A model generated the notes under the pieces. It searched no databases and was not told the origin of the DNA. It saw nothing but the letters and a program-made list of their open reading frames with translations. Position numbers and translations under genes: made by a program. A stretch of 64,000 nt of DNA, from assembly GCF_001690495.1 (NCBI RefSeq), contig NZ_LZGS01000048.1, positions 62,001-126,000 of the forward strand. The letters run 5' to 3'. Origin of the DNA: Gilliamella sp. App4-10 (GTDB lineage Bacteria > Pseudomonadota > Gammaproteobacteria > Enterobacterales > Orbaceae). This document shows, piece by piece, positions 6,026 to 47,010 of the stretch; the first letter of the stretch is position 1; each line of letters starts with the position of its first letter.

Positions 6026-8311
6026 TTAAATCTTACAAGCGCCACCTTCGCAACCATCATCACTTTTAGTCAGTGCTATATCACCTTGAATATCTTCAGC
6101 ACCATCGCGGGTATTGTGATAATAAAGTGTTTTTACGCCAAACTTATAAGCAGTTAATAAATCAGCCAATAACTGTTTCATTGGGACTTTATCATTTGGG
6201 AATTTAGTCGGGTCATAATTGGTATTAGTCGAAATTGATTGGTCAATAAATTTTTGCATAATTCCCACCAAATGCAAATACCCTGTATTATTAGGAATTT
6301 GCCAAAGTAGCTCGTAGAAATTTTTTAGCCCATTATAATCTGGCACAACTTGTTTTAAGATACCATCTTTCGAAGCTTTAACACTAATAAATCCTCGTGG
6401 TGGTTCAATGCCATTTGTTGCATTGGATATTTGTGAAGATGTTTCTGACGGCATTAATGCCGATAAAGTTGAATTACGTAACCCATGAGTTTTAATTGAT
6501 TCTCGAAGTGATTCCCAATCATAGTGTAAAGGCTCTTTGGTAATAGTATCTAAATCTTTTTTATAAGTATCGATTGGTAAAATGCCTTGCGCATAAGTTG
6601 TTTCGTTAAATAGTGGGCATGCTCCCTTTTCTTTTGCAAGGTTATTAGAGGCTTTTAGCAAGTAATATTGCATGGCTTCAAAAGTACGATGCGTTAAATT
6701 GTTGGCACTACCATCAGAATATTTAACGCCATTTTTTGCTAAATAATAAGCATAGTTAATGACGCCAACGCCTAATGTGCGACGATTGATTGAAGAGTTT
6801 CGAGCTGCAGGAACTGGGTAATTTTGGTAATCCAGTAGTGAATCAAGTGCACGTACAGTTAAGTCAGCAAGCTCTTCAAAATCATCTAATGATTCGATTT
6901 TACCAAGGTTAAAGGCCGACAACGTACAAAGTGCAATTTCCCCGTTTTCATCATTGACATTATTAAGTGGCTTGGTAGGTAATGCAATTTCCATACATAA
7001 ATTAGATTGATGAACAGGCGCCAATTGAGCATTAAATGGGCTGTGGGTATTACAGTGATCAACATTTTGGATATAAATACGCCCAGTTGATGCGCGTTCT
7101 TGCATTAATAATGCAAAAAGTTCAACCGCTTTAACCACGCGTTTGCGAATATTGACATCTTGCTCATATTGGTGATAAAGCGTTTCAAACTTATCTTGAT
7201 CAGCAAAAAAAGCCTCATAAAGTCCAGGTACATCTGATGGGCTAAATAGGGTAATATTTTCGTTTTTGATTAACCGTTGATACAGTAATTTGTTGATTTG
7301 TACCCCATAATCGAGATGACGAACACGGTTTTCTTCAACCCCACGGTTGTTGCGTAAGACTAATAAACTTTCGACTTCTAAATGCCAAAGAGGATAAAAA
7401 ACGGTTGCAGCACCACCTCGAACACCACCTTGCGAACAAGATTTAACAGCTGTTTGGAAGTATTTATAAAATGGAATACAGCCAGTATGGAAAGCTTCAC
7501 CATCGCGAATTGAGCTACCTAAAGCACGAATTTTCCCCGCATTGATGCCAATCCCGGCGCGTTGTGATACATATTTTACAATCGCACTTGCCGTTGCATT
7601 GATTGAATCTAAGCTATCATCACACTCAATTAATACACAAGAACTAAATTGGCGAGTAGGCGTACGAACACCTGCCATAATAGGGGTTGGTAATGAAATT
7701 TTAAAGGTAGAAACAGCATCATAAAAACGTTTAATATAGTTAAGGCGTGTTTCTTTAGGATAGTTAGCAAATAAACAAGCTGCGACTAAAATATATAAAA
7801 ACTGCGCACTTTCATAAATCTCGCCAGTAACACGATTTTGTACCAAATACTTCCCTTCAAGTTGTTTGACCGCCGCATATGAAAACGACATATCTCGCCA
7901 ATGGTCAATCATTTTGTCCATTTGTTCAAACTCTTCTTGGGTATAATCCTCAAGTAAATGTTTATCGTAACGTTCACTGTTGACCAATTTTTTAACATGT
8001 TCGTATAGTGATGGAGGCGTAAATTGGTTATAGGCCTTTTTACGTAAATGAAAAATGGCCAAACGCGCAGCTAAATATTGATAATCAGGGGCTTCTTGTG
8101 AGATCAGGTCGGCAGCCGCACGGATAATTGTTTCATGAATATCCGATGTGCGAATACCGTCGTAAAATTGAATATGTGAACGCAATTCAACTTGAGAAAC
8201 GGAAACATTGTCTAAACCCTCAGCAGCCCACGCAATGACCCGATGGATTTTATCAAGGTTGATTGGTTCTTTATTTCCATCCCGTTTTGTAACTAGTATT
8301 GATTTATTCAT
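6026..8311 (-). CDS. nrdA: Class Ia ribonucleoside-diphosphate reductase, alpha subunit
   Basis: Catalytic subunit that reduces ribonucleoside diphosphates to deoxyribonucleoside diphosphates. The N-terminal ATP-cone (about residues 5-95, starting VTKRDGNKEPINLDKIHRV) gives activity control by dATP and ATP. The barrel contains the SSCVLIE and NLCMEI cysteine regions, and the C-terminus ends CEGGACKI, the redox pair reloaded by thioredoxin or glutaredoxin. Its 761 residues equal the E. coli length. It is first in the operon with nrdB. Two NrdR-like boxes lie upstream at 8373-8388 and 8404-8419, so repression by NrdR-dATP is the likely control. Assignment is firm. Confidence 0.97.
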   Translation of the reverse strand: MNKSILVTKRDGNKEPINLDKIHRVIAWAAEGLDNVSVSQVELRSHIQFYDGIRTSDIHETIIRAAADLISQEAPDYQYLAARLAIFHLRKKAYNQFTPPSLYEHVKKLVNSERYDKHLLEDYTQEEFEQMDKMIDHWRDMSFSYAAVKQLEGKYLVQNRVTGEIYESAQFLYILVAACLFANYPKETRLNYIKRFYDAVSTFKISLPTPIMAGVRTPTRQFSSCVLIECDDSLDSINATASAIVKYVSQRAGIGINAGKIRALGSSIRDGEAFHTGCIPFYKYFQTAVKSCSQGGVRGGAATVFYPLWHLEVESLLVLRNNRGVEENRVRHLDYGVQINKLLYQRLIKNENITLFSPSDVPGLYEAFFADQDKFETLYHQYEQDVNIRKRVVKAVELFALLMQERASTGRIYIQNVDHCNTHSPFNAQLAPVHQSNLCMEIALPTKPLNNVNDENGEIALCTLSAFNLGKIESLDDFEELADLTVRALDSLLDYQNYPVPAARNSSINRRTLGVGVINYAYYLAKNGVKYSDGSANNLTHRTFEAMQYYLLKASNNLAKEKGACPLFNETTYAQGILPIDTYKKDLDTITKEPLHYDWESLRESIKTHGLRNSTLSALMPSETSSQISNATNGIEPPRGFISVKASKDGILKQVVPDYNGLKNFYELLWQIPNNTGYLHLVGIMQKFIDQSISTNTNYDPTKFPNDKVPMKQLLADLLTAYKFGVKTLYYHNTRDGAEDIQGDIALTKSDDGCEGGACKI

Positions 8312-8372
8312 TCTTTCTACTCAATTTTTAAAATTTATTTTTTTACTTATGATAATTGATGTTTATCAAATT

Positions 8373-8388
8373 ATACAATATGTAGTAC
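8373..8388 (-). promoter_or_regulatory. NrdR box 1 of nrdAB
   Basis: ATACAATATGTAGTAC matches the NrdR consensus (ACACWATATMTWGTGT) at about 12 of 16 positions, including the central AC-W-ATAT-x-T-W-GT core. On the leftward coding strand it overlaps a TATAAT hexamer (8371-8376), as expected for a repressor covering the -10 region. Its centre is exactly 31 bp from the centre of box 2, the three-turn spacing typical of paired NrdR boxes. Confidence 0.75.
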
Positions 8389-8390
8389 CT

Positions 8391-8432
8391 ATTAATTTAT
8401 TAACTACTACATGTAGTAGTTAATAAATTAAT
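8391..8432. promoter_or_regulatory. NrdR box 2 within a perfect 42-bp palindrome
   Basis: The box CTACTACATGTAGTAG (8404-8419) retains the NrdR core pattern, centred on 8411.5. The symmetry extends without a gap or mismatch to 21 bp on each side, far beyond a 16-bp box. It could form a cruciform in DNA; if transcription starts downstream near box 1, it would not be part of the mRNA. The rest of the 280 bases between nrdA and the next gene is AT-rich with no other clear signal. Confidence 0.7.
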
Positions 8433-8540
8433 TATATTCTAAAAAGTAATAAATCAAATTTGTTGTCGCTTATATAAAAGCAGTACAATTATCATTAAAA
8501 ATGATAAATATAGTGAAAAAAAATAAAATTACGAAAGTAG

Positions 8541-8570
8541 AAAATCTACCTATTATTAGGTAGATCTTTT
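8541..8570 (-). terminator. Terminator of the third gene in the secreted-paralogue array
   Basis: A 7-bp stem (ATCTACC with GGTAGAT) and short loop are followed in the leftward direction by a T run. It lies just after the stop codon at 8592. The same hairpin, slightly diverged, follows the other two paralogues, so it was duplicated with the genes. Confidence 0.75.
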
Positions 8571-8591
8571 AGATAGCTTAATTGAAGGTAT

Positions 8592-9953
8592 TTATTTTAT
8601 AGCAATACAGACGCCATTTTTATGTTCACTCTCTGAGCGACAGTGATATCTAGCGTTGTAAGGGTGTAAATCACAGTATTCTTTTGCAACGGTGTCATAC
8701 ACCCAGATACGTTTAAAAGACAAAGCTTGGTTAGAGGCTGCCGCCCAAGAATTAGGGTAGGCTTTTTGATTTGGATCTCCCCATTCACCTAATAATGAAC
8801 CAATTTCTCGGGTGAATTTTGCAGTACCGGCACTCTGACCAAATGGAGCATTACTCAATTCATCTGCATGGCTTATACGATAATTACCATTTAGTGTTTC
8901 ACAACCTAAAATAACTTCTTGTACGCTACCCCTATTGGCTTTTGATTGGCCAATAAAATTTTTATCCCAGTCAGAAAACCATTTGGTAATGGTGAATGGG
9001 TATTGAATAGTGTGGCCTGTGACTTTATTTCTTCCTTGAATGATAACGGTATACCCATTATTAGACTCCATAACATGCTGCCAAGCTGTTTTGGTATTCG
9101 CTGCTTGTGCAGTATTAAACTTGACGGTGACTACATCGGCATTATTAGAAATAGTGATAAGTTCATTTCCTTTAACGATCTGCCAATCATAATTTTTAGC
9201 AAGCCCATTTTTGGCTAATAAAAGGTCAAATTGAGCACCATAAAAAGCGGTCGTTGGAAAGTTTTTATTAGTATCAATGTTAGACTGAGTTAAGAATCCA
9301 TACTTTATATTCCATTGATTTTTTGTACTTGCTGAAGCTTGTGTTGGTGCTAACTCAGGCTTTGCATAACAAATTCCTGCGTCTTCTAATACGGTATAAA
9401 TTTTTGATGGGTGTGTAATGATATCTTCATTAGGATATTCATTAGAATTGGGAATACCATACTTGGAGGATAATGTTAGATCAGCCGATATTTTTACTTT
9501 ATATGGGCCTAATTGCCCTTTTTGTGTTAATGAGCAAAAAGTGTCGTTATCTTTAGGTGTAAATTCGACTAATTGATTCGATGCATTTGTATAATACCAA
9601 ATCAATTGAGGATTTTCTTTTGTATCAAGGATGGCTAGCTCATCGCCATCAGTGTCTAAATATTGGTCACGATTGGGTTGTTTTAACGGTGCTATTTTAA
9701 TGCGATTTTTAAATGAGTAGCTAATAGGTATTGACATATTACTTATTTCATTGCCATAGTAATTTTTATCATCAACGGTTAAGCCAAAAAGCTCAAAATC
9801 ACTAATATTTGCTTCGATTGCAGATGAAAATTTTGGTTTAGTTCCTTGAACTATATGTGCGGTTTTTGTCGATAAAACTGCATTACTAGTTGTAAGGTGT
9901 AGTAAGCATATTGCATATATGATTGTTTTAAAATGTCCTCTAATTATATTCAT
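8592..9953 (-). CDS. Secreted adhesin-like protein, paralogue 1
   Basis: A 453-residue exported protein with a signal peptide of about 25 residues ending SNA. It is one of three tandem paralogues here. The middle carries an Ig-like stretch (NYDWQIVKGNELITISNNADVVTVKF). The C-terminal third (GNYRISHADELSNAPFG, GEWGDP, NSWAA, then RIWVYDT and four Cys-bearing turns) recalls the C-type-lectin-like adhesion domain of enterobacterial invasin-type and DUF823 proteins. That likeness is from memory and not firm. No membrane anchor or autotransporter domain is visible, so it is probably periplasmic or secreted. A GAAAGAAG sequence precedes the ATG at 9953. It has its own upstream region and terminator and so is probably a single-gene transcript. 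Confidence 0.8.
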   Translation of the reverse strand: MNIIRGHFKTIIYAICLLHLTTSNAVLSTKTAHIVQGTKPKFSSAIEANISDFELFGLTVDDKNYYGNEISNMSIPISYSFKNRIKIAPLKQPNRDQYLDTDGDELAILDTKENPQLIWYYTNASNQLVEFTPKDNDTFCSLTQKGQLGPYKVKISADLTLSSKYGIPNSNEYPNEDIITHPSKIYTVLEDAGICYAKPELAPTQASASTKNQWNIKYGFLTQSNIDTNKNFPTTAFYGAQFDLLLAKNGLAKNYDWQIVKGNELITISNNADVVTVKFNTAQAANTKTAWQHVMESNNGYTVIIQGRNKVTGHTIQYPFTITKWFSDWDKNFIGQSKANRGSVQEVILGCETLNGNYRISHADELSNAPFGQSAGTAKFTREIGSLLGEWGDPNQKAYPNSWAAASNQALSFKRIWVYDTVAKEYCDLHPYNARYHCRSESEHKNGVCIAIK

Positions 9954-18921: not shown

Positions 18922-20361
18922 TTAATTATTTGGAATATAATTTTTAATATCGTGTGATAAAATGTTTTTTAGATTTTCCGTGACTAAATCGGTTAATCCA
19001 TTGACATTATTTAGATCTTGTCCCCAATGCTCAGTCATTTTTAAGACATTTGTAACTAATGTTTTTACGTCATTTTGATAAAGTGGTTGCCATTCATTAA
19101 ATTTTTCTAATAAATGAGCATCATCCGTTAATGAAATCGTTTGACCTTGGTACTCTCCACGATAAAAAGCAATAAGTGCAGCTAATGAAAATGAAATATA
19201 TTTTGGTGGTTGGTTAAATCGTTGACTATAGGTTAATAACTGTGGTAGCAAGCGAGTTTTAAATTTAGTTAATGAATTTAATGAAATAGACATTAATTCA
19301 TGTTTGATGAATGGATTTTTAAAACGTTTTAATACCTCATCGGCAAATTGTTTTAGTTGTTCTTTATCCAAAGATAGGGTTGGAATTACTTCTTGATTAA
19401 GGAGATTTTTAACAAAACTTTCAATTTGCGGATTATTCATACATTGGCCGACAGTACGTAGTCCAGCAAGGTAAGCGACGGGAACCATTGCTGTATGGGC
19501 ACCATTTAAGATTCCAACTTTTCTTTCTTTGTAAGGTTTAATATCATCAACCACTAAAATATTAATATCTACTTGATCAAGCCTTAATTTTTGTTTTAAC
19601 CAATCGGGTCCTTGAATAACAAATAAATAGAAGTATTCTGCTGTATCTAAAAATCGGTCTTGGTAGCTTAGTTGTTGTTCAAGCTGTGTAGCTTCATCTT
19701 TTGGGTAGCCTGTTACTATACGATCAACCAACGTTGAGCAAAATGTATTACTTTCGTTAATCCATATAATAAAGCTATCACTAAGTTGCCATAATTTTGC
19801 ATATTCTAGTACCAACTCTTTTAGTTTTTCGCCGTTATAATCAATGAGCTCACATGGAATGATAATTAAACCTTTATCTTTTTGCCCGTTAAAAAATTCG
19901 AATCGATGATGTAAAAAACAGGTTAATTTTGCTGGGAAAGTTGTTGGTGGTGCATCGGTAGCTTTATCTTTATCATTAAATACTATTCCTGCTTCAGTTG
20001 TATTTGAGAAAATAAATTCTAAATCAGGATTTTCAGCACATTTTAAATATAATTGATAATTTTGATATATCAAGATTTCACGATTAACTGAGTAGATAAT
20101 TTGAGGTATAGCAATAGCATCACCTTGTTCATTAAGACCGCGAATAATAGTTGTATAAATTCCATCTTGTTCATTAATTGAGGGTTGATGGGTATCAATA
20201 GGCCTTATAATTGTTACACCACTATTAAAGTCTGTTTTTGTGTTTAGATTATCAATAATCCAATCAACAAATGCTCTTAAAAAATTACCTTCACCAAATT
20301 GGATAATCTTTTCAGGGTAATTTCGACCAGGAAAGTTAGTTCTATTTAATTGTTTAGCCAT
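18922..20361 (-). CDS. uxaB: Tagaturonate reductase (altronate oxidoreductase)
   Basis: Reduces D-tagaturonate to D-altronate with NADH. The N-terminal cofactor fold begins [21 protein letters not shown], and the conserved catalytic segment is [18 protein letters not shown], typical of the mannitol/uronate dehydrogenase family. At 479 residues it is close to E. coli UxaB. GAGAA precedes the ATG. It lies 18 bases upstream of the zinc dehydrogenase and is surely co-transcribed with it. Its DADH-like relative UxuB lies elsewhere in the window at 54566. Confidence 0.93.
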
Positions 20362-20479
20362 ATAATAGTTCTCTTTAATTATGTGGTTAGGCAGTAAATA
20401 AAGAGAACTATAAAAGAGGATTAAAAACCGTATTCATTTTTTTTGTTTTTTCGTGTTGAGTATAAAATTTTTTTGTTTT

Positions 20480-21397
20480 TTATCTGTTTTTTATGGTTAA
20501 TGTTCGACCAATCGACTCTTGCATTGATGTTTTAGCTGTATTTAGATGTCGGCATAATGCTGCGATGGCAGCCTGTTCATCTTTTTGTAAAATTGCTGTT
20601 AATATCGCAATATGTTCCGATACGGCAATATTATTACGTTCTTTTAAATTACTGTTGTCCCACTGATAATGAAAATGAAAGATAACCGAAATTAAATCAA
20701 AAGACTGCATGAAAAATGGATTATCATTACAAGACAGAATTAACTGATGAAAATCACGATCAAGCGTTGAAAAAAGTGTATATTCATCTTGTATATTTTT
20801 CTGAAAATTCTTATGGTGTTGTAATAATTCTCGTGCTTTTATCCAGTTAATGTGATTATCAGGTTGAGCCATAAATGCTTTAAGCGCAAATATTTCTAAG
20901 ACACTCCTAAATTCATAAAGTTTTTCTGCATAATCTTTGGCAAATGTAACTAATTTCCATTCTCCTTTTTTTATGTTATTAATCAGTCCATAATGTAAAA
21001 AACGTAATAAAAATTCACGAACTACAACGGGATTCACTTTTGTATCTTTTGCAAGTTGAATTTCGTTAAAATTATCACCAGGTAATAACTTCTTATGATT
21101 TATTAAATGGTAAAAATAGGTTTCGAATTTTTTATCTTGTAACGATCTTTTTTCAAAAATACAGGCTATTTTATCCTCATTTGTTGGTTCTCGTAATAAA
21201 TGGTATTGATTATTGTTAAACAGGAGAATTTCTGTTTTGCATAAATGCTCTAGTACTGCTCGAATAGTTGTTCTACTCACATTAAAAGTATCAGCAAGAA
21301 TTGAAATAGAAGGTAATGGAAAAGATAATATTTTGTTATTAATACAATCAATAAATTGATTAATGGTATTTTGCCTTAGTGTCTGACTTCTGCCCAT
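20480..21397 (-). CDS. GntR/FCD-family regulator with two winged-helix domains
   Basis: Likely regulator of the surrounding galactonate/altronate cluster. Residues 8-70 form one winged helix (ADTFNVSRTTIRAVLEHL). Residues 91-150 look like a second GntR-type winged helix (AKDTKVNPVVVREFLLRFLHYGLI). Residues 155-290 are an FCD ligand domain with Asp213, His217, His262 and His284 in the metal-ligand places. Ordinary FCD regulators of about 230-250 residues have only one DNA-binding domain. It lies between the transporter and uxaB on the same strand. Effector and operator are not known from the sequence. Confidence 0.85.
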   Translation of the reverse strand: MGRSQTLRQNTINQFIDCINNKILSFPLPSISILADTFNVSRTTIRAVLEHLCKTEILLFNNNQYHLLREPTNEDKIACIFEKRSLQDKKFETYFYHLINHKKLLPGDNFNEIQLAKDTKVNPVVVREFLLRFLHYGLINNIKKGEWKLVTFAKDYAEKLYEFRSVLEIFALKAFMAQPDNHINWIKARELLQHHKNFQKNIQDEYTLFSTLDRDFHQLILSCNDNPFFMQSFDLISVIFHFHYQWDNSNLKERNNIAVSEHIAILTAILQKDEQAAIAALCRHLNTAKTSMQESIGRTLTIKNR

Positions 21398-21489
21398 ATT
21401 ATGTTTCTCGATAATGTTATGGTGATTATAAGAATTTAAGAAAATCCTACCAAATATTTTTAATAGGATTTTCTAATAAAAAGGCTAAG

Positions 21490-22770
21490 TTATAAAGTAG
21501 ATTGAATTTCTGTAATTGGTTTAATATCTTTCAATACGAATAAATATACGAATGCACCTATAGCACAAGCACAACCTGAAACCACGAGAGCATACATAAA
21601 TGAACCTGTTGCGCCAATAATATACCCAGTTACAATGGGTCCTAATATGCCACCACAATTTGAAACCGTATTTTGAATTCCACCTAAAACGGATGTCATA
21701 TTTCTTGGCGCAATATCGCCAGGTAGACACCAAATAGCTGAACCAGCAAAGGCCAGCCCAATATATGAAATACAAAGTAAAACCATCATTATGATTATAG
21801 AATCAACTAAGCCGGCAAGTGTAATTGATGTTGCAATTAACATTCCTGCAACCAAATTAAATTTTCTAGCAAGATTGATATTATTGGTTTTTATATAAAT
21901 AAAATCAGTTAACCAACCACCAAACCATTGTCCAATTATACCACATAAGGGCGGTAACATGGCCAAAAAGCCCATTTCAGTTAAGCTTAAACCACGTTCT
22001 TTCATTAAATAGGTGGGGAACCAAGTAATGAAAAAATAGACTGCATAATTAAGCATAAAAAATCCAACACACATAGCAACTACATTGCGGTATTTTAATA
22101 ATTGATACCATTTCATTGGTTGTATGGTATCTATTCCTTCTTTTTTGATTTGACCTTCACGAATATATTTTAATTCTGTTGTACTTATACTTGGGTGTTG
22201 TTCTGGATCTCGGTAAATACATAACCACCAAACAACCCAAACAAGACCTAAAGCACCACAAATAAAGAATGTCGCATGCCATCCCCAGACCGCAATAATC
22301 CAAACAACAAGAGGCATCGTAAAAGCTGTCCCGAAGCGTGAACCACTATCAAATAGTGCGGTAACGCGTCCTCTTTCTTTATCAGGGAACCATTTTGCTG
22401 TAATTCCGCCATTGCAAGGATATGCGGCAGCTTCTCCAATACCCATAAACACTCGAGCAAAAATGAAACCGATAGGAGATGTTGCTAATGCCGTTGCGCC
22501 AGTTGCTAAAGACCACCAAGTTACTGATACTGCAAGCGTTCTTCTTTGCCCAAAACGATCTGCAAGGAATCCAGCAGGAATTTGACAACACGCATAACTT
22601 AAGAAAAATGCAGACATGATCCATCCCATTGCTTCAGGTGAAATATTTAAATCAATCGCAATAATAGGTGCAGCTGCAGACATTACAGTTCTATCTAAAT
22701 AATTAATCACAATAGCAAATAACATAAGTATTGCTATATGGAATCGAACACGACTATTCTTTTTAGGCAT
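21490..22770 (-). CDS. MFS sugar-acid transporter, probable L-galactonate/hexuronate symporter
   Basis: A 426-residue, 12-TM major facilitator of the anion:cation symporter family. The first TM ends NYLDRTVMSAAAP, the loop 2-3 motif is GFLADRFGQRR, and WFPDKERGRVTALFDSG is typical of ExuT, DgoT, GudP and LgoT proteins. It is the first gene of the leftward cluster that includes a LgoD-like dehydrogenase, uxaB and uxaA, which points to L-galactonate or a related aldonate as substrate. D-galactonate and galacturonate remain possible. It differs from the ExuT at 57505. Confidence 0.85.
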   Translation of the reverse strand: MPKKNSRVRFHIAILMLFAIVINYLDRTVMSAAAPIIAIDLNISPEAMGWIMSAFFLSYACCQIPAGFLADRFGQRRTLAVSVTWWSLATGATALATSPIGFIFARVFMGIGEAAAYPCNGGITAKWFPDKERGRVTALFDSGSRFGTAFTMPLVVWIIAVWGWHATFFICGALGLVWVVWWLCIYRDPEQHPSISTTELKYIREGQIKKEGIDTIQPMKWYQLLKYRNVVAMCVGFFMLNYAVYFFITWFPTYLMKERGLSLTEMGFLAMLPPLCGIIGQWFGGWLTDFIYIKTNNINLARKFNLVAGMLIATSITLAGLVDSIIIMMVLLCISYIGLAFAGSAIWCLPGDIAPRNMTSVLGGIQNTVSNCGGILGPIVTGYIIGATGSFMYALVVSGCACAIGAFVYLFVLKDIKPITEIQSTL

Positions 22771-23112
22771 AAAAAACCTCTTTATATAAATTATTCAATA
22801 ATATATTTAATTATTTATATTGTTAATTAGGATGATAAAGACTACTAGTGCATAGGTCATTTCATTAAAATGGCTATATCGATAGTAGAGAAAAAATTTA
22901 TTGAGATAAGGAATTATTTGTTTGATTGTGGTCGGGATAATATTTTTCTGTTTTTTATTTGTTTTTTTTATTTTTGTTCATTTATATTAAATCTTCATCA
23001 ATTTAAAGCATTCCTTTTTTATAACAATAGCGTGTTATTATTATTTAATTTGTTGATTTTTAATATTTAAATTTTTGATTTTAGCTGTTTTTGTCTAAGT
23101 TAATAAAATAAT

Positions 23113-23128
23113 TATGATATTGATCACA
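23113..23128 (+). promoter_or_regulatory. CRP-like binding site upstream of the symporter/GH172 cassette
   Basis: TATGATATTGATCACA matches TGTGA-N6-TCACA at 9 of 10 positions. It is centred about 88 bases before the start codon at 23209, a distance that allows class I activation. Catabolite control fits a sugar-uptake cassette. Confidence 0.75.
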
Positions 23129-23149
23129 TTTATCCAATAAATCTTTTAA

Positions 23150-23165
23150 AGCTAAATTTTTAGCT
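23150..23165. promoter_or_regulatory. 16-bp palindrome, candidate LacI-family operator
   Basis: AGCTAAATTTTTAGCT is a 7-bp perfect inverted repeat around TT, placed between the CRP-like site and the start codon. Its size and symmetry fit an operator for the LacI-family regulator at 25630, although the usual central CG is missing. A second inverted pair, CTGCA with TGCAG, follows at 23166-23183. Confidence 0.45.
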
Positions 23166-23208
23166 CTGCATACTCAATTGCAGTGGTTCACTCTTTATAG
23201 GATAAATT

Positions 23209-24438
23209 ATGATAAGTGCATTTTATAACAAGCCTACTTATTGGTTCGCTTCCTGTTACAGCTTTATGTATTACGCTGCAGGTAGTTTCGTTTTTTCGTT
23301 TTATGCCATATGGCTAAGTAAGGAGATTGGCTTAACAGCAAAACAGACTGGCATTATTTATTCATTTAATTACTTTGTTTCGCTCATCATTATGATTGTG
23401 TATGGTGTTTATCAAGATAAATTAGTACTGAAAAAACAGCTTATCTGGTTTCAAAGTATTATTATCACATTAGCCGCGCCTGCATTAATTTATGTTTATG
23501 AACCGCTACTAAAGCATAGTTTTTATATTGGTGTCATCTTTGGTAGTTTCTTTTTAGGTTTTGGTTGGGTTGCAGGGATGGGGTTAATTGACTCTTACTG
23601 TGAAAAAATCAGCCGCGCTTTTGGTTTCGAGTTCGGTCAATGTCGCACGTGGGGGTGCATTGCTTATGCAGTAGGAACTTTTATAGCCGGTATTTTAATT
23701 AGTCTTAATCCACATCTAAATTTTTGGGCTGCATCGGGTGTAGGTATCTGTTTTATGCTACTTAATCTCAATTTTAAACCCGATTTAAGTCAATCAGCAG
23801 AAACTGTCTTCCAAAAAAAGGACAAGCTAAGTTTTAATGAAATTATATCAGTGTTTACACTGAAAAAATTTTGGATATTTGTTATCTATGTGCTTGGAAC
23901 TTATAGCCTTTACAATATTTATGATCAACAGTTATTCCCTGTTTATTTCACTCAGCAGTTTGACGATATCAATGATGGTTATCGCTTATATGGCATATTA
24001 AATTCGTTTCAAGTTTTTTTAGAAGCGGTGGTCATGTTTTGTGTTCCATTTGTTGTCAATCGTGTGGGAGCAAAAAATGCGTTAATTTTTGCTGCGTTTA
24101 TTTCAGCTTCTCGCATCTTCCTTACTGGACATGTTAATAGTATTGCGATTATTTCCATAATTAAACTCATGCACTGCTTGGAGATTTCTACCATTTTAGT
24201 CTCAGTATTTAAATATATTGATATTAATTTTAATGCTCGTCTTTCTGCAACGGTCTTTTTAATCGGTTATCAGGTGGCAGGTTCTATCGGTGTTATTTTG
24301 TTTTCCACCCTTGTTGGTGATTTTTACGATACCGCCGGTGCGGCAACCACATTTAATAATCTTGGGTTAGTTGTTTTAGGATTTATGATTTTTGCTATTT
24401 TCTTCTTAAACGGTGATAAAAAAAGAAGATACAAATAA
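23209..24438 (+). CDS. Oligosaccharide:H+ symporter (LacY/CscB family)
   Basis: A 409-residue, 12-TM symporter of the LacY, RafB and CscB family. The marker FEFGQCRTWGCIAYAVG corresponds to the LacY segment around Arg144, and YDQQLFPVYF matches the LacY Asp240 region. It is clearly different from the true LacY-like protein at 45733. AGGA precedes the ATG. It is first in a rightward three-gene cassette with a GH172 enzyme and a Cra/ScrR-like LacI regulator. A sucrose-like or difructose substrate is suggested by these neighbours but not shown. Confidence 0.88.
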   Translation: MISAFYNKPTYWFASCYSFMYYAAGSFVFSFYAIWLSKEIGLTAKQTGIIYSFNYFVSLIIMIVYGVYQDKLVLKKQLIWFQSIIITLAAPALIYVYEPLLKHSFYIGVIFGSFFLGFGWVAGMGLIDSYCEKISRAFGFEFGQCRTWGCIAYAVGTFIAGILISLNPHLNFWAASGVGICFMLLNLNFKPDLSQSAETVFQKKDKLSFNEIISVFTLKKFWIFVIYVLGTYSLYNIYDQQLFPVYFTQQFDDINDGYRLYGILNSFQVFLEAVVMFCVPFVVNRVGAKNALIFAAFISASRIFLTGHVNSIAIISIIKLMHCLEISTILVSVFKYIDINFNARLSATVFLIGYQVAGSIGVILFSTLVGDFYDTAGAATTFNNLGLVVLGFMIFAIFFLNGDKKRRYK

Positions 24439-24487
24439 TAAATAGTTAAAGAAAATTACGTTTAATAAATGTTAGTAAGGATTCACA

Positions 24488-25606
24488 ATGAACATATATA
24501 ATTCAGTCACACAATTTCACTTTGAACAAACCAGAACCATTTCGCCTGAAAATATGACGGGTGAAAAAGGTCAATCTTGCATGAAAGCGAGCGCTTTAGG
24601 ACCAAGTCGTAAAGGGCAAGGTTGCATAACAATACCAGCAGGTGAAACAGTCACTATCGCTGAAATTACAGGACCTGCGGAAATTCGTCACATGTGGTTT
24701 ACCTTAACAGATAGAACACATCGCGGTAGTTTTGTGTTACGTGATGTTGTTATCCGCATTTATTGGGATGATGAAAAAGTACCATCAGTCGAAAGCCCAA
24801 TCGGTGATTTTTTCTGTAATGGTTTTGGCGCAAGATGTGATATTAACTCCATGCCCATTGTGGTCAATCCAACAGGGGGATTTAACAGTTACTTTAGAAT
24901 GCCTTTTAATAAAAAAGCAAGAATTGAAATTCAAAATGAACATGAAGCAGATTTACAACATTTCTTTTTCACCATTAATTATGCCTTAATGCCACAACCA
25001 TTTGATGCACCGCTTTATTTTCATGCTCAATGGCGCAGACAAAGAGTAACCAATTATGCCGAAGATTATGTATTATTAGATAATATCGAAGGTTATGGCT
25101 ACTATGTTGGTACTTACTTAGCATTAACAGCCTTGGAACGTTACTGGTGGGGAGAAGGAGAATTTAAATTCTATCTGGATGATGATAGCGAATATCCAAC
25201 CCAACACTCAACAGGCTCTGAAGACTATTTTGGTGGGGCATGGGCATTTCATAATCGTGATAGCCAAGGTCGTCCATCAGCTAAATGTTTTCAAACGTTA
25301 TTTATGGGCTACCCCTATCAGACTAATCGTGATGCAACGCGCGATTTTTTTCAAACTGGAGATGCGAATCCAGTACACGGTTTTGGCGACGATGCATTGC
25401 CTATGCATGGTTTATATCGTTGGCATTTACCTGATCCGATTGCATTTCACAAAAATATCAAGCTTACCTTTCAACAAATAGGTAATGATGATATAAGATT
25501 ATATGAGCGTTGTGATGATATAGCCAGTGTTGCATATTGGTATCAAAATCCATCGGTTAACTGTAATCCAACATTTCCTAACAAACAGCTACGCACTCCT
25601 CGTTGA
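24488..25606 (+). CDS. DUF2961 (GH172) family protein
   Basis: The GH172 family includes difructose dianhydride I synthase/hydrolase and D-arabinofuranosidases. The 372-residue sequence shows the family marks: RHMWFTLTDR near 67, WWGEGEFKFYLDDD at 220-233 with Glu223 and Glu225, and TGSEDYFGGAW at 242-252 with Glu245, the region of the catalytic acids. There is no signal peptide, so it acts on substrate brought in by the symporter 49 bases upstream. The expected reaction is hydrolysis or rearrangement of a furanoside such as a difructose dianhydride or inulobiose. The exact substrate is inference. Confidence 0.85.
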   Translation: MNIYNSVTQFHFEQTRTISPENMTGEKGQSCMKASALGPSRKGQGCITIPAGETVTIAEITGPAEIRHMWFTLTDRTHRGSFVLRDVVIRIYWDDEKVPSVESPIGDFFCNGFGARCDINSMPIVVNPTGGFNSYFRMPFNKKARIEIQNEHEADLQHFFFTINYALMPQPFDAPLYFHAQWRRQRVTNYAEDYVLLDNIEGYGYYVGTYLALTALERYWWGEGEFKFYLDDDSEYPTQHSTGSEDYFGGAWAFHNRDSQGRPSAKCFQTLFMGYPYQTNRDATRDFFQTGDANPVHGFGDDALPMHGLYRWHLPDPIAFHKNIKLTFQQIGNDDIRLYERCDDIASVAYWYQNPSVNCNPTFPNKQLRTPR

Positions 25607-25629
25607 TATAAAAGGAAATAGTAATATCT

Positions 25630-26628
25630 ATGGCGAGTAATAAATTAAAAATCAATGATATTGCTCGTTTAGCTGGCGTGTCGGCAACGACCGTCAGCCA
25701 TATTTTTAATAAACGAGATAAAAAATATCGTATTTCACCACAAACGAGGCAACGTGTATTATCCATTGCTGAGCAATACAGTGAACAGGCCCATATTCGC
25801 CAATATCTAGTTAAAGCAAATAGTACCGATACGATAGGTGTGATAGTGCCAGACATTTCCAACTCTTTTTTTTCCATGTTTTTGCACTATTTAGAAGCTT
25901 CATTCAGGAAAAAGAACATACAATTATTAATCACTTGTAGTCATTATAATAAAGACGTAGAAATTAAAGTGGCACAGAACTTAGTTGAGCGAAAAGTCGA
26001 TGCAATGATTGTCGCTACTTCATTAGATAGCGATGAGTTTTATATTAGTATTAATCAAAATACGCCTGTATTATTTTTCGATCGTTACCTTAAAGATACA
26101 CGGTTACCGTTTATTGCCAGCGAATCATTAAACTCCGTCGCGGAGTTGATTCAGCCGTATGCTAGGCAACTAGATGAATTTTATTTTATTGGTTGTGACA
26201 CACAGTTAACTTCGATTGAAGCTAGACTTAAAGGATTTAAGCAAGGGCTTAAAAATGTTGGTTTAGCTGTTAATCCACAATGGTTAGTGAGTGATAACTA
26301 CCATCCAAATAAAGGTTATCAGTTACTTAAAGGGGTTCATGAGAAATTAGGGCGATTACCTAAAGCTATTTTCACACCATCTGGTAATTTGCTACAAGAG
26401 GTTCTAAGTTATTTAGTTGAAGTTAAAGTAAAACCTCAAGATATCTGCTTATGTTCTTATGATTATCATATCTATCTAGATTATTCCTACTACCCAATTG
26501 ATGCAATTATGCAGGATTTTGAAAATATGGCTCATACTTGTGTTAATGTGATTAATGATTTGCTCAATTTCAACGAGTTAAAATATAATGCGTTTTTTAT
26601 CAAACCACAAATTATTCGTCATAGATAA
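25630..26628 (+). CDS. LacI-family regulator, Cra/ScrR-like
   Basis: The HTH at residues 4-50 reads INDIARLAGVSATTVSHIFN and is followed by a Cra-like hinge and a periplasmic-binding-protein-like ligand domain with IGVIVPDISNSFF and RKVDAMIVATS. In overall form it is closer to Cra (FruR) and sucrose regulators than to GalR. It ends the symporter-GH172 cassette 23 bases after the enzyme gene and probably represses it. The 16-bp palindrome at 23150 is a candidate target. A fructose-type phosphate ester or the free sugar could be the inducer. Confidence 0.88.
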   Translation: MASNKLKINDIARLAGVSATTVSHIFNKRDKKYRISPQTRQRVLSIAEQYSEQAHIRQYLVKANSTDTIGVIVPDISNSFFSMFLHYLEASFRKKNIQLLITCSHYNKDVEIKVAQNLVERKVDAMIVATSLDSDEFYISINQNTPVLFFDRYLKDTRLPFIASESLNSVAELIQPYARQLDEFYFIGCDTQLTSIEARLKGFKQGLKNVGLAVNPQWLVSDNYHPNKGYQLLKGVHEKLGRLPKAIFTPSGNLLQEVLSYLVEVKVKPQDICLCSYDYHIYLDYSYYPIDAIMQDFENMAHTCVNVINDLLNFNELKYNAFFIKPQIIRHR

Positions 26629-26656
26629 TTGAACATTTTTTCATAACATTATACAA

Positions 26657-27139
26657 CTATCGATTAGCATTTTTCATAATTCGTGCTTTATCAACTTGCC
26701 ATTGTCGTTCTTTGATATCAGTTCGTTTATCGTACTCTTTTTTACCTTTGGCCACACCAATTTTTACTTTTGCCCATGCGTTCTTCCAATATAGCGAAAG
26801 CGCTACAACGGTATAACCTTGGCGATTGATTTGACCAAATAATGAATTTAATTCGCGTTCATTTAATAACAATTTACGTGTGCGCATAGGTTCACAAACA
26901 ACATGTGTTGATGCGACATTAAGTGGTGTGATAGTTGCACCAAAGAGCCATGCTTCGCCATCTTTAAGTAAAACATAACTGTCACTAATGTTGGCTTTTC
27001 CTGCACGTAGGGATTTTACTTCCCAACCTTGTAGGGATAATCCCGCCTCAATTTCCTCTTCAATAAAGTACTCATGGCGCGCACGTTTATTTAATGCAAT
27101 GGTTGCCGAACCTGGCTTATGTGATTTTTTCTTAGTCAT
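26657..27139 (-). CDS. smpB: SsrA-binding protein SmpB
   Basis: Binds tmRNA and brings it to stalled ribosomes for trans-translation. From the ATG at 27139 it is 160 residues and begins [20 protein letters not shown], almost identical to E. coli. The frame is open further to 27181, but those 14 residues are hydrophobic and overlap the divergent promoter region, so I reject them. [19 protein letters not shown] and the basic C-terminal tail [11 protein letters not shown] that enters the mRNA channel are present. It is divergent from ratA. Confidence 0.97.
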
Positions 27140-41427: not shown

Positions 41428-42426
41428 TTATGAAATAATAAATTGATAAGTTGTTTGATAACGGTAAGTTTGATCTGAGTGTAAAAAACAGCTGGGTTGT
41501 GGCCAGTTTGGATGATTAGGACTATCGGGTAAAAATTGTGCTTCTAGTGCTATGCCAGCAAAGTTGCCATATTCACCGTTGTGCCGATTTGGTGTATGTT
41601 GTAAAAAATTGCCAGTATAAACTTGTAATGAAGGTTTGGTTGTAATCACATTCATCATTACTTTTTTATCGGATGAAATGAGCTGTGCGGCGATAGTTTG
41701 CGTTTTATCTAATAAATAAGCGTGATCATAACCACCGGTTATTTGCCGTTCTTGACTTTCAAGCAGTTTCTCTGATAAAAGCTTTGGCTGTCGCAAATCC
41801 ATATCGTGCATGGTGACACTAACTAAATCATTGCTGGGGATACCGTTGGCATCCACAGGTAAATAATAGTTAGCATTCACTTTTAATCTGTGATTAAGTA
41901 TATCTTTGCTTGTTTCGCCATCAAGATTAAAGTAAGCATGATTAGTCAAATTAATAGGCGTGGTTTTTGTTGTAGTTACGTTAAACGCGATAATGATTTG
42001 ATTGTCATCGGTGAGTCTATAAGTTGCCGTGACATGGAGTTCGCCAGGAAAACCCTGATCACCATCAGGTGAAATTAATTTAAAGATTACTTGCTGATCG
42101 GATTGAGATTGAATATGCCAAAATTGTTTATCAAAACCTCGTTTTCCTCCATGCAATTGATTTACACCTTGATTAGCAGTGAGCTGATAGCGTTTACCGT
42201 TAATATCAATTACCGCATTGGCAATCCGGTTAGCGTATCGTCCAATGGTGGCACCTAAATAGGCATCTTGTTGGTGATATTGTTCAAGTGATTGACAGCC
42301 GAGTAATACTTCACGTTTTTGTCCATTAACGGGTAATACACAAGATAGCCATGTCGCTCCCCAGTTGGAAAGTTTGATCTGGGTTCCTTGTGTGTTCGAA
42401 AGCGTAATAATTTGTTTTATAGGCAT
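41428..42426 (-). CDS. galM: Aldose 1-epimerase (mutarotase)
   Basis: Interconverts alpha and beta galactose so GalK can act. It has [14 protein letters not shown], the catalytic His in [10 protein letters not shown] and the catalytic Glu in [15 protein letters not shown]. Its 332 residues are typical. The start codon overlaps the galK end by 10 bases; it is the last gene of the lacY-galETKM operon. Confidence 0.94.
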
Positions 42427-43574
42427 ATCGCATGGGCTCCTTCACTTGGTGTACAGACATAAAAATCTTCTTTAAAACCAAAATTTTTAGCATAATTGTC
42501 ACTAACAACGGTTTTAACTGAATCTATTTTATCTTTTGGTACTAATGCCACAACACAGCCACCAAAGCCACCGCCAGTCATTCGTACACCGCCTTGTTCA
42601 CCAATGACTCCTTGAATTATTTCAACAAGGTAATCAATAGCGGGTACTGTGATTTCGAAATCATCACGCATTGAGATGTGACTATACGCCATGAGTTTTG
42701 ATAACAATTTATAATCGCCATTCACAAGAGCTTGCGCTGCTTTTAGCGTGCGTTCATTTTCGGTGATAACATGATGAGCCCGCTTAAAAACGATTGGATC
42801 CAAGGTGGTTTCAATATTTTTTAATTCAGTTAACGAGGCATCTCTTAGCGCTTTCACCCCAAGAGCCTGAGCTGCAGCTTCGCACTGTTGACGTCGAGTA
42901 TTATATTCACTATCAACTAATCCGCGTTTAATATTTGAATTGATGATAACCACAGCAAAATCTTTAGGAATTGAAACTGGTCTAGCTTCTAGTGATCGGC
43001 AGTCAATTAACAATGCATGTTGAGTTTGACCAAGGGCAGATATGAGCTGATCCATGATACCACAATTGCAACCGACAAATTGATTTTCGGCTTCTTGCCC
43101 AATTAATGCCAACTGATTGCCATCTAAAGGCAAGTCGTACAAAATCTGGAACATTTTAGCTATCGCAACTTCTAGAGATGCTGATGAGCTTAGCCCTGCA
43201 CCTTGGGGAACATTTCCACTAATAGTAAAATCAACGCCATGAATATTATTTGCATATTTTTTTAAGTGTTTTACCACACCACGTATGTAGTTAGCCCATC
43301 TATAATTTGGATGTTTTTCAATAGGAGAATCTAACCAAAATTCATCTTGTTGATTATCGTAATCTACTGCAATGACTCGAACGAGATCATCAGAGCGCTT
43401 ATGGCAGCTTATTACTGTTTGATAATCAATAGCACAAGGTAAAACAAAACCTTCATTATAATCGGTATGTTCACCAATCAGATTTACACGACCGGGAGCT
43501 TGTACAACTATATTCGTTTTATAACCGAATTTAAATTCAAATGCTTGTGTAGTTGTTTGGATTAATGCGTTCAT
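42417..43574 (-). CDS. galK: Galactokinase
   Basis: Phosphorylates galactose at C1 with ATP (GHMP kinase family). [19 protein letters not shown] at 28-46 binds galactose, the ATP loop [15 protein letters not shown] begins at 123, and the third motif is [15 protein letters not shown]. Its 385 residues match E. coli. AAGGA lies 8 bases before the ATG. It is 19 bases after galT. Confidence 0.96.
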
Positions 43575-43593
43575 CTATTTATCCTTTTTATTT

Positions 43594-44625
43594 TTAATAA
43601 TACACATCACTAACGTTGCGTAACCTTTCAGCTGCTTGTTCTGGAGTTAAATCTCGTTGTACTTCGGCTAACATTTCGTAACCGACCATAAATTTTTTTA
43701 CTGTAGCGGAACGTAATAAAGGGGGATAAAAATGCGCATGCACTTGCCAGTAATCATTTTTATCTTTCATAAATGGCGCACCATGCCAACCCATAGAATA
43801 GGGGAAAGAACAATAAAATAAATTATCATAGCGACTAGTTAATTTTTTAAGCGCAATGGCTAAATCACTTTGTTGCTCGTTATTCAACATGGTTAATTGT
43901 GGAATATGGGTTTTTGGTAATAATAATGTTTCAAATGGCCATATTGCCCAAAAAGGAACGACAGCAAGCCAATGCTTCGTTTCAACAACGATTCGTTCAC
44001 GATGAATGAGTTCTTTTTCGACATAATCAACTAATAAATTTCGATGATATTTTTCAAAATAATTGCGCATGTTTAGATCTTCGCGCGCAATTTCATTGGG
44101 TAAAAAGCTAGTAGCCCAAACTTGTCCATGTGGATGTGGGTTAGAACATCCCATTGCCGCCCCTTTATTTTCAAATATCTGTACCCAAGGATAGTGTGTA
44201 CCCAATTCTTGTTGTTGATCTATCCAAGTTTTAATTACCCCTTTAATTGCGGATAAATCAAGTTCAGGTAATGTTTTACTGTGATCGGGTGAAAAACAGA
44301 TCACTCGACTGGTACCTTTTGCATTTTGCATTTGGAACAGCGGGTCATGGTTCTTTGGTGATTCAGGCGTGTTTTCTATTAATGCTGCAAAATCATTAGT
44401 AAAAATAAATGTTCCCTTATAATTAGGGTTGATATCTCCAGTTACCCGTTTGTTACCTGGACACAAAAAACAAGTTGGATCGTAACTCGGTTTTTGTTCT
44501 TCATTTAATACTTCTTGTTGTCCTTTCCATGGGCGTTTCGCTCTATGTGGTGAAACAAGTACCCATTGATTGGTTAATGGATTGTAACGACGATGAGGAT
44601 GGTTAACAGGATTAAAAATATCCAT
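43594..44625 (-). CDS. galT: Galactose-1-phosphate uridylyltransferase
   Basis: Transfers UMP from UDP-glucose to galactose-1-phosphate. The HIT-like active site [10 protein letters not shown] places the nucleophile at His166, the same number as in E. coli. Cys52 and Cys55 ([10 protein letters not shown]) are the zinc ligands. The 343 residues are standard class I GalT. It lies between galE and galK in the gal operon. Confidence 0.96.
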
Positions 44626-44676
44626 TTTTGCCTCTTCTTTTAATTTTGCATGTTTTAGTCTTATTTAATCTAATGA

Positions 44677-45693
44677 TTAATCAGGATAACCTTGCGGGTT
44701 ATTTGATTGCCAATTCCATGAGTCTTTTACCATGTCGTCAAGCGTGAGTTTAGTTTTCCAACCTAGAATTTGCTCAGCTTTGTTAGCATCGGCCCAAAAT
44801 TCGGGTAAATCGCCTGCTCGTCTTGGTGCGAAGTGCCAATTAAGCGGTTTTCCTGATGCTTTCTCAAAAGCTTTGATGACTTGTAATACGCTGTAACCCA
44901 CACCTGAACCTAAGTTATAAATATGTACTCCAGCTTTATTATGATCGGCTTTGAGTGCAGCAATATGCCCATCAGCCAAATCCACAACATGTATAAAATC
45001 ACGAACACAAGTTCCATCTGTTGTTGGATAATCATTTCCAAAAACCGCTAATGATTCTCTTTTTCCTACCGCAACTTGGGTAATATAAGGCATAAGATTA
45101 TTAGGAATACCAAGTGGATCTTCGCCCATTAATCCACTTGGATGCGCGCCAACAGGATTAAAGTAACGCAGTAAAGTGAGTGACCAATCTGGTTCGGCAA
45201 CGGCTAAATCCATGATACATTGCTCTACCATTAATTTACTTTTTCCATAGGGACTGGTTGGTAAACCTTGTGGTAAGGTTTCAACATAAGGTACGGGTGC
45301 TAGTTCACCATAGACAGTGGCTGATGAGCTAAACACTAACTGTTTAACACCCGCTGTACGCATTGCTTTCATAAGTACAATACTGCCGTAGACATTGTTT
45401 TCATAATATTCAAGTGGTTTATGTACCGATTCACCAACGGCTTTTAGGCCAGCAAAATGAATAACTGCTTTAATATCATGCTTTGAAAAAATCTTAGTTA
45501 ATAGCTTTTCATTGCACACATCGCCTTCATAAAAATTGGGGGACTGGCCAGTAATTTTTTGTATTCTATCTAACACTGATGCTTTGCTGTTAAATAAATT
45601 GTCAAGAATAATGGGTGTGTAGCCTGATAGAATAAGTTGGACACAAGTGTGACTTCCTATATATCCACAGCCACCAGTTACTAATATTTCCAT
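44677..45693 (-). CDS. galE: UDP-glucose 4-epimerase
   Basis: Interconverts UDP-galactose and UDP-glucose. The NAD loop is GGCGYIGSHT at residues 7-16 and the catalytic pair is Tyr149 and Lys153 in SPYGKSK, matching E. coli. NPVGAHPSGLMGEDP and the DYPTTDGTCVRDFIHV segment are intact. The 338 residues are typical. It follows lacY by 39 bases. Confidence 0.97.
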   Translation of the reverse strand: MEILVTGGCGYIGSHTCVQLILSGYTPIILDNLFNSKASVLDRIQKITGQSPNFYEGDVCNEKLLTKIFSKHDIKAVIHFAGLKAVGESVHKPLEYYENNVYGSIVLMKAMRTAGVKQLVFSSSATVYGELAPVPYVETLPQGLPTSPYGKSKLMVEQCIMDLAVAEPDWSLTLLRYFNPVGAHPSGLMGEDPLGIPNNLMPYITQVAVGKRESLAVFGNDYPTTDGTCVRDFIHVVDLADGHIAALKADHNKAGVHIYNLGSGVGYSVLQVIKAFEKASGKPLNWHFAPRRAGDLPEFWADANKAEQILGWKTKLTLDDMVKDSWNWQSNNPQGYPD

Positions 45694-45732
45694 AATAAAT
45701 CCTTTCTCTAATGTAATAGTTATCGTATGCTT

Positions 45733-47010
45733 TTATGAATCTTCAAATTTTTCACTGCACTTATGTTTCCATAGATCCCATGGTCTACGCCCTGATAATG
45801 TGAAGGAAGAAATCAGTGTAAAACTAAGTGCAATCAAGCCAAGGACTAGATATGCTCCTTTAAAGCCTATTTTAACATACATAAGCCCCGCAAAGGTGGA
45901 CATAAACATAATAGATAATTGTTTTGCAAAACAAAATGCAATTAAGTAGACAGTTGCAGATAAGCGAATAGGGAAGTGTTGAGTAATATATTTAAATGCG
46001 CCAACAAGCAATAAAGGTGCTTCGAACATATGTAAAGTTTTTAATATAACAACTTCAACTGCTGTGCTGGCAAATGCTGAGCCTGTAATACGAATAGACA
46101 TGATTGCACCCGCAACAAGTAATGTATTTTTACTGCCTATTTTCTTCACAATTAAAGGGGCAAAAAACATCACAGAGGCATTTAAAAATTCACCCAGTGT
46201 GGTGACATAACCGAATGCTTCTCGACCAGCTTGTTCGCTAGAAAAAAATGAGGTGAAAAAGTTAGCAAACTGTTGATCAAATACATCATAAGTACAAGCA
46301 ACTCCAATTATGTATATCATAAAAAACCAAGTTTTACGCATACCAAGTAAATTGATTGCCAGTTTTAGATTAAATGGTTCAGGTTTATTTAATCCCATTT
46401 TTGCAACGACTTCAGTCGTTGCCGTTTTTGCAGGGTCAGCGATTTTTACTAAAACTAGAAGAATCAATGCAAATCCAGAACATAACCAGTAAACAGCATT
46501 GACATCTTTAGATATCATTATTCCAACAAATGAAGCACAAATTGCCCAACCAAAACAACCAAACATACGGCATCGACCAAATTCAAATCCACTACGTCGA
46601 CTTATTTTTTCAACGAGTGCTTCGATGGCTGGCGCACCACCACTAAATACCATACCAAGATAAAATCCACCAACAATTGCACCCAAGCTTACATTGAGTT
46701 GAAGCAACGGCCCCAAAATGAAGATAAAAAATGGACCAAATAGCACAAGAAGTAGCGTGATAATCCAAAGAAGGTGTTTTTTTAACCCCAACTTGTCAGA
46801 AATCAACCCAAACAGAGGTTGAAAAAAAAGTGCAAATAATGAAATAAATGAAAAAACATATCCCGTATTTGCCTCATCTAGGCCATTCATTTTCAACCAA
46901 ACAGGGAAAAACGGGAAGTACGCTCCCATAATAAAAAAGTAAAGGAAGAAGTAGAGACTAAATATCCAATAATTTTTATTATTTAGTGATGACTTAATTT
47001 TTTGATTCAT
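45733..47010 (-). CDS. lacY: Lactose/galactoside permease LacY
   Basis: Galactoside:H+ symporter with 12 TM helices. All residues essential in E. coli LacY are aligned: Glu130 (E126), Arg148 (R144), Glu274 (E269), Arg307 (R302), His327 (H322) and Glu330 (E325), plus [16 protein letters not shown]. It is much closer to E. coli LacY than the symporter at 23209. AGGAAA precedes the ATG. It is the first gene of an operon with galE, galT, galK and galM, so it supplies galactose or galactosides. No beta- or alpha-galactosidase gene lies in the window. Confidence 0.93.

Follow-up and report, generated by a model that had tools for sequence, protein, structure and literature searches.

The GH172 cassette of Gilliamella sp. 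App4-10

Which sugar would a bee-gut bacterium import through a LacY-type symporter and then split with a glycoside hydrolase of family 172 (GH172, Pfam DUF2961)? The question is raised by a three-gene cassette of Gilliamella sp. App4-10 (Orbaceae), found in a 64,000-nucleotide stretch of contig NZ_LZGS01000048.1 (positions 62,001 to 126,000), which as a whole is the window of this analysis. Our preferred answer, to which we give a probability of roughly 60%, is an alpha-D-fructofuranoside: the unit would pair proton-coupled import with cytoplasmic cleavage by GH172, freeing fructose. This reading is supported by the residue at the specificity position of the enzyme, by the ScrK-type fructokinase neighbours of its relatives, and by the family nearest to its regulator.

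We envisage an inducible and catabolite-controlled operon for such a sugar. The LacI-type protein would keep it repressed at the AGCTAAAWWTTTAGCT palindrome as long as no inducer (fructose or the fructoside) is present, and CRP would activate it. Together with protons, the symporter would carry a small oligosaccharide that contains fructose into the cytoplasm; GH172, a retaining hydrolase whose active site would lie between subunits as in solved relatives, would then cut the alpha-D-fructofuranosyl bond and release fructose, to be phosphorylated by a PfkB-type, fructokinase-like kinase whose gene lies elsewhere in the genome, divergent from a gene of glycoside hydrolase family 32 (GH32). Of this picture, the sequence itself shows the genes, the catalytic residues, the predicted fold and the conserved sites; the substrate, the inducer, the direction of regulation, the proton coupling and the oligomer are inferred from them.

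The features of the cassette are collected in Table 1. The gaps between its three plus-strand genes are short (49 bases from symporter to GH172 gene, 23 from there to the regulator gene), so that a single transcript is likely; the list of open reading frames of the locus has no GH32 gene inside the cassette. An earlier note on this DNA had described a symporter, a GH172 enzyme and a repressor-like gene, in that order, behind a CRP-like site and a palindrome; the genes are confirmed here by reading frames and Pfam matches, the CRP-like site by shuffling and the palindrome by its conservation. On the minus strand, 18922-22770 holds genes for a tagaturonate reductase, a GntR regulator of the FCD type and an MFS transporter that comes closest to D-galactonate transporters; they probably serve use of galacturonate, as from pectin.

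Table 1. Genes and candidate regulatory sites of the cassette, in window coordinates
Feature	Position	Strand	Details
CRP-like site	23110..23131	+	18/22 consensus matches
Palindrome AGCTAAATTTTTAGCT, probable operator of LacI-type regulator	23150..23165	.	core GCTAAAWWTTTAGC conserved upstream of relatives
LacY-family proton/oligosaccharide symporter	23209..24438	+	409 aa; Pfam LacY_symp 423.7 bits
GH172 (DUF2961) glycoside hydrolase	24488..25606	+	372 aa; Pfam 281.1 bits; E223 acid/base, E245 nucleophile, A253 specificity position
LacI-family regulator, nearest fructose-responsive ScrR/Cra group	25630..26628	+	332 aa; Pfam LacI and Peripla_BP_3; NCBIfam

Fold and active site of the enzyme

The DUF2961 match of the enzyme compares with a profile cut-off of 27 bits, and its predicted monomer (predicted local distance difference test score, pLDDT, 82.7) aligns with four GH172/DUF2961 entries at Z scores of 36.3 to 43.1, the next row standing at 13.7; the model thus supports a double jelly-roll fold. 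Two of these relatives serve as references: ExoMA1 of Microbacterium (MIAR_33200, PDB 8ic8, Z 43.1) and alphaFFase1 of Bifidobacterium dentium (PDB 7v1v, Z 37.0). Around the sugar in alphaFFase1 stand W267, E270, E291, D292, W298 and Y187', with E85' and K147' at the +1 subsite (PMC8605356; this and the other papers are cited from excerpts). We placed these residues by counting along printed alignments, a count checked by the named residues in the printed stretches, which hit the right alphaFFase1 letters. W220, E223, E245, D246 and W252 of the cassette enzyme thereby correspond to W267, E270, E291, D292 and W298, and they recur in 60 of 60 aligned GH172 rows. Phe replaces Tyr187, and the Y187F variant of alphaFFase1 is reported to be still active (PMC8605356); the E85 region falls between aligned stretches.

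The specificity position, 253, is Asn in ExoMA1, where it stands at the place of alphaFFase1 Gly299 and is reported to block fructose (PMC10509167). Here it is Ala, small but not Gly, which by its size should leave room for fructose. Over the 60 rows this position is Ala in 45, Ser in 9, Gly in 3, Cys in 2 and Asn in 1. Both the count and the tree omit four loci without a clustered GH172 frame (L070, L076, L079 and L082) and the short frames of L080 and L086, and of the two GH172 copies in L085 they use the one other than 8001-9014; Asn also occurs in L082 and in L085 copy 8001-9014, both outside the 60. The enzyme is very likely cytoplasmic, judging from statements on published relatives and from its N-terminus, at which no signal peptide is evident by eye (no formal prediction was made).

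Gene context of the relatives

The nearest full-length enzymes outside Gammaproteobacteria belong to Bacillota (57-64% identical), with carriers in Enterococcus, Sporolactobacillus, Trichococcus, Vagococcus, bee Lactobacillus, Weissella bombi and others. Names of neighbouring genes rest on one or two representatives of each cluster, not on every locus. A ScrK-type fructokinase appears in 11 of 62 gene maps. All 11 belong to a set of 23 Bacillota loci in which the enzyme is full-length and its specificity position is Ala, and in 9 of these 11 the kinase gene lies directly 3' of GH172. Scored against NCBIfam (cut-off 400), one of two such kinases passes with 404.4 bits and the other reaches 391; in L063 the ScrK-type gene is broken into two frames. 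The substrate of ScrK is free fructose. It is the ScrK-type kinase of the relatives, above all, that indicates fructose as the product. The same 23 loci carry mannose-family phosphotransferase system (PTS) genes in 19 cases and a sigma-54 activator in 17, and in two (L059 and L066) a GPH-type symporter replaces the PTS.

Around Ser-type enzymes, GH32 adjoins GH172 in three spirochaete loci, and a GH13 enzyme does so in Bifidobacterium asteroides. DUF2961 and GH32 have been reported combined in single proteins (PMC8812541), and fructooligosaccharide use has been linked to a locus of Bacteroides uniformis that holds four GH32 genes and one GH172 gene (PMC9905522). In the tree, the nearest rows are those of Gilliamella, and the Gammaproteobacterial clade is placed beside one PTS group with weak support (89/69), so that we claim no donor; the positions of the long branches ExoMA1, alphaFFase1, L088 and L089 are unsure.

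A protein cluster (c20) is found in 10 Bacillota loci, mostly between the PTS genes and GH172; its 725-aa member at L050:5827-8001 matches GH125 only marginally (23.6 bits against a cut-off of 23.4) and nothing in NCBIfam or PDB, and is possibly an unnamed glycosidase. L058:14185-15837 gave no NCBIfam match at 1e-20. In Lapidilactobacillus (L081:9143-10444) the gene of sigma-54 itself adjoins GH172 in a PTS operon, and its cluster is also represented in L083 and L087.

Regulatory sites and regulator

Among 2000 dinucleotide shuffles of the intergenic region (438 bases), none matches the CRP consensus as well as the CRP-like site does. The GATCACA of this site recurs in 18 of 21 upstream regions, namely the window and loci L029-L048, many of which are close relatives and not independent; the exceptions are L032, cut by a contig end, and L047 and L048, where it is degenerate. 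The palindrome core GCTAAAWWTTTAGC is kept in all 21 regions, 41 to 46 bases 5' of the symporter start, and the sequence further upstream of the conserved sites has diverged among them. On Klebsiella plasmid NZ_CP029387.1 the exact core likewise lies 40 bases 5' of a homologous symporter. Because the core is kept throughout and precedes the Klebsiella pair too, the palindrome is probably the operator of the LacI-type regulator of the cassette.

The palindrome by itself was rejected as evidence, since a 7+2+7 palindrome occurs in 321 of 2000 shuffles, and its conservation alone is counted. The repeat finder, at default settings, lists no inverted repeat there, and promoter- and terminator-like sites over 22771-26700 occur at chance level only. 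The Gilliamella genome has the exact core at two places, in the cassette and at C4:119972; we take the latter, which from the DNA lies within a recD-like coding region, to be a chance occurrence. These sites are most simply read as a local pair of repressor and operator. Of 17 NCBIfam models, the regulator fits TIGR02417, ‘D-fructose-responsive’, best (275.2 bits), followed by Cra (PRK11303, 200.5 bits against a cut-off of 385).

Symporter and downstream metabolism

The symporter scores 416.8 bits against TIGR00882, the LacY/CscB oligosaccharide:H+ family (cut-off 220). R146, R302, K319, H322 and E325 are invariant across eight aligned LacY-family members that include it, and the last four are the H+-coupling residues of LacY. 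At the places of W151 and E269, sugar-site residues of LacY, it has Tyr and no Glu, respectively; a LacY-like protein at 45733-47010 in the window keeps both. The symporter is 33% identical to this protein, 34% to a permease encoded between alpha-galactosidase and GH32 genes, and 39% to the permease of a LacI-permease-GH32 cluster on an E. coli plasmid. Its own genome (2.43 Mb in 53 contigs) has two further clear LacY-family genes besides it, the one at 45733-47010 and one on C35; the latter, beside a divergent LacI-type gene, encodes a protein 47% identical to it. At 42417-47010, galK-, galT- and galE-like genes adjoin the second LacY-family symporter, the one with the LacY sugar-site residues, and the region looks likely to be a galactoside uptake and Leloir cluster.

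The genome has a single GH32 match, of the ScrB family (500 bits, cut-off 356.4). The PfkB-type kinase gene is divergent from it, with fructokinase as its best model (380 bits).

Weighing the substrate

Several points weigh against an alpha-D-fructofuranoside. The regulator falls below the TIGR02417 cut-off of 389.55 and so misses the threshold for ScrR/Cra membership, and the PfkB kinase is under its fructokinase cut-off of 450. The symporter is above the cut-off for PRK09528, ‘galactoside permease’ (461.8 against 429), as is the GH32-linked permease. Within the stretches examined, ScrK is absent from 12 of the 23 Ala-type Bacillota loci and a GH32 match from all 23. The literature excerpts consulted describe no assay of an Ala-type GH172, position 253 of 8ah3 and of other assayed enzymes not having been checked. 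As for the calcium side chains of alphaFFase1, N31 and D33 align with glycines and N272 with Glu.

To these is added that the enzyme is nearer overall, in sequence and fold, to an arabinofuranosidase than to alphaFFase1: ExoMA1 is its closest solved structure by sequence (E 1.9e-68) as well as by fold, and has Glu at the N272 place too. The cassette enzyme could accordingly resemble it in function, as an exo-alpha-D-arabinofuranosidase trimming imported D-arabinose oligosaccharides, which we think unlikely given that position 253 is Ala and not the fructose-blocking Asn, and that the operons of relatives encode fructokinase. Fucose isomerase is one usual route for D-arabinose, and a Fucose_iso_C search that was positive in E. 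coli found no match in the Gilliamella genome, other D-arabinose routes not having been searched.

The -1 subsite residues and the family it shares with alphaFFase1 would also suit a synthase/hydrolase of difructose anhydride I (DFA I), by which imported DFA I would be turned into inulobiose and then split by GH32 encoded elsewhere. The genome does have its ScrB-family GH32, and difructose anhydrides arise in heated or acid-treated materials rich in sucrose or fructose (PMC6245366). Yet the cassette itself is without GH32, alphaFFase1, on a long branch, is no member of the query clade, and the place of K147, in a gapped part of the alignment, has no lysine. A K147 mutant of alphaFFase1 keeps less than 5% of its inulobiose activity (PMC8605356), so that, with no counterpart of this residue, DFA I itself is unproven as substrate, and we regard this alternative as improbable.

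A further point against the preferred reading is that the PTS partner of most Ala-type Bacillota loci would phosphorylate its sugar, so that substrates may differ between the groups. With few members of the family characterised, the cassette might act on another furanoside or on a compound with fructose at its reducing end, such as the phosphorylated disaccharides implied for PTS-linked relatives, the link to fructose being then only indirect. We judge this very unlikely, as ScrK in those relatives works on the free sugar and the Orbaceae symporter would leave its cargo unphosphorylated.

We thus retain an alpha-D-fructofuranoside as the preferred substrate. Among the sugars considered in the earlier note, Ala253, the ScrK neighbours and the regulator family favour fructofuranosides.

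Distribution in Gammaproteobacteria and on plasmids

The cassette is common in Gilliamella, yet it is not restricted to bee-gut Orbaceae. DUF2961 is matched in 27 of 44 genomes of the family (25 of 35 in Gilliamella, 2 of 2 in a second genus, 0 of 7 in three other genera). Among the 61 loci from our scan of genome contigs, L029-L048 come from 16 Gilliamella, an Orbaceae bacterium, an uncultured Enterobacterales bacterium, Frischella and Anaerobiospirillum; in all 20 the symporter gene precedes GH172 and a LacI-type gene follows, inverted only in Frischella (L047). A 369-genome sample of the class yields relatives of the enzyme in two, its own genome and one at 43% identity.

Plasmid records matching the enzyme number 131, of which 43 are at 80-90% identity (42 Klebsiella, 1 Raoultella); 43 match the symporter at 60-80%. 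The symporter-GH172 pair was present in both plasmid records examined. In the Klebsiella pair of L112, the LacY-GH172 order and the operator core are those of the cassette, the enzyme being 81.5% and the symporter 71% identical, whereas LacI-type and substrate-binding-domain frames lie upstream on the opposite strand in place of the one downstream regulator. At L112:3372-6507 the pair is flanked by insertion sequences, the LacI-type frame, the short substrate-binding-domain frame and a 345-base MFS fragment, from which the locus looks rearranged. The Klebsiella lacY-GH172 DNA has no match in E. coli complete genomes, PLSDB/RefSeq label the enzyme ‘glycoside hydrolase family 172 protein’, and the open-licence PubMed Central excerpts on GH172 and Klebsiella hold nothing on this cassette. 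With this pair on Klebsiella plasmids and all three genes in Anaerobiospirillum, the insect-gut setting first suggested for the cassette does not hold as a specific one. A DUF3737 protein follows the cassette in Anaerobiospirillum (L048:11822-12682) and GH172 in bee Lactobacillus (L064, L065:9555-10442), a neighbour common across phyla.

Comparison with known systems and significance

The cassette had been thought to represent a new route of import followed by cleavage, a claim that is too strong: in the excerpts cited, ABC transporters are proposed to import the substrates of intracellular alphaFFase1 and GH32 in B. dentium (PMC8605356), and a comparable route is depicted for D-arabinan oligosaccharides in Microbacterium (PMC10509167). 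The B. dentium BBDE_2040 operon shares with the cassette a LacI-type regulator and proposed import before intracellular GH172 cleavage (PMC8605356), and its enzyme has the same fold and -1 subsite residues; it differs in having an ABC rather than a LacY-type transporter, GH32 inside the operon, Gly rather than Ala at the specificity position, and Lys147 and calcium side chains without counterpart here. ExoMA1 is likewise intracellular and shares the catalytic residues, but its locus is one for D-arabinan, with endo-enzymes and an ABC transporter (PMC10509167). Enterobacterial LacI-permease-GH32 clusters, such as that of E. coli plasmid L114, also combine a LacI-type regulator, a LacY-family permease and a fructosidase, with GH32 (beta-fructofuranosidase) where the cassette has GH172. 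Because import followed by cleavage has in general terms already been proposed in print for B. dentium, what is new here lies in the kind of transporter, in the group of Ala-type enzymes and in the spread of that group among bee-gut bacteria.

That spread covers GH172 in Gilliamella, Frischella, Lactobacillus and Weissella, with a Ser-type cousin in Bifidobacterium asteroides. We tentatively suggest, as a possibility we would not favour at present, that the Ala-type enzymes are an alpha-D-fructofuranosidase group of their own, which passed between Bacillota and Gammaproteobacteria and switched transporter (PTS, GPH or LacY type). If so, their presence across bee-gut bacteria would indicate a regular alpha-fructoside in nectar, honey or pollen, unnamed as symbiont food. 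Difructose anhydrides, which a review describes as arising when sugars are heated or treated with acid and as indicating adulterated honey (PMC6245366), offer a thin link to bees; no paper linking Gilliamella with difructose was found in open-licence PubMed Central.

GH172 has few characterised enzymes, and little is known of alpha-D-fructofuranosides as natural food; with its small operon, apparent operator and single enzyme, the cassette makes an easy test case. The sugar, if found, would name a carbon source common to several bee-gut bacteria, and might explain the gene pair on Klebsiella plasmids.

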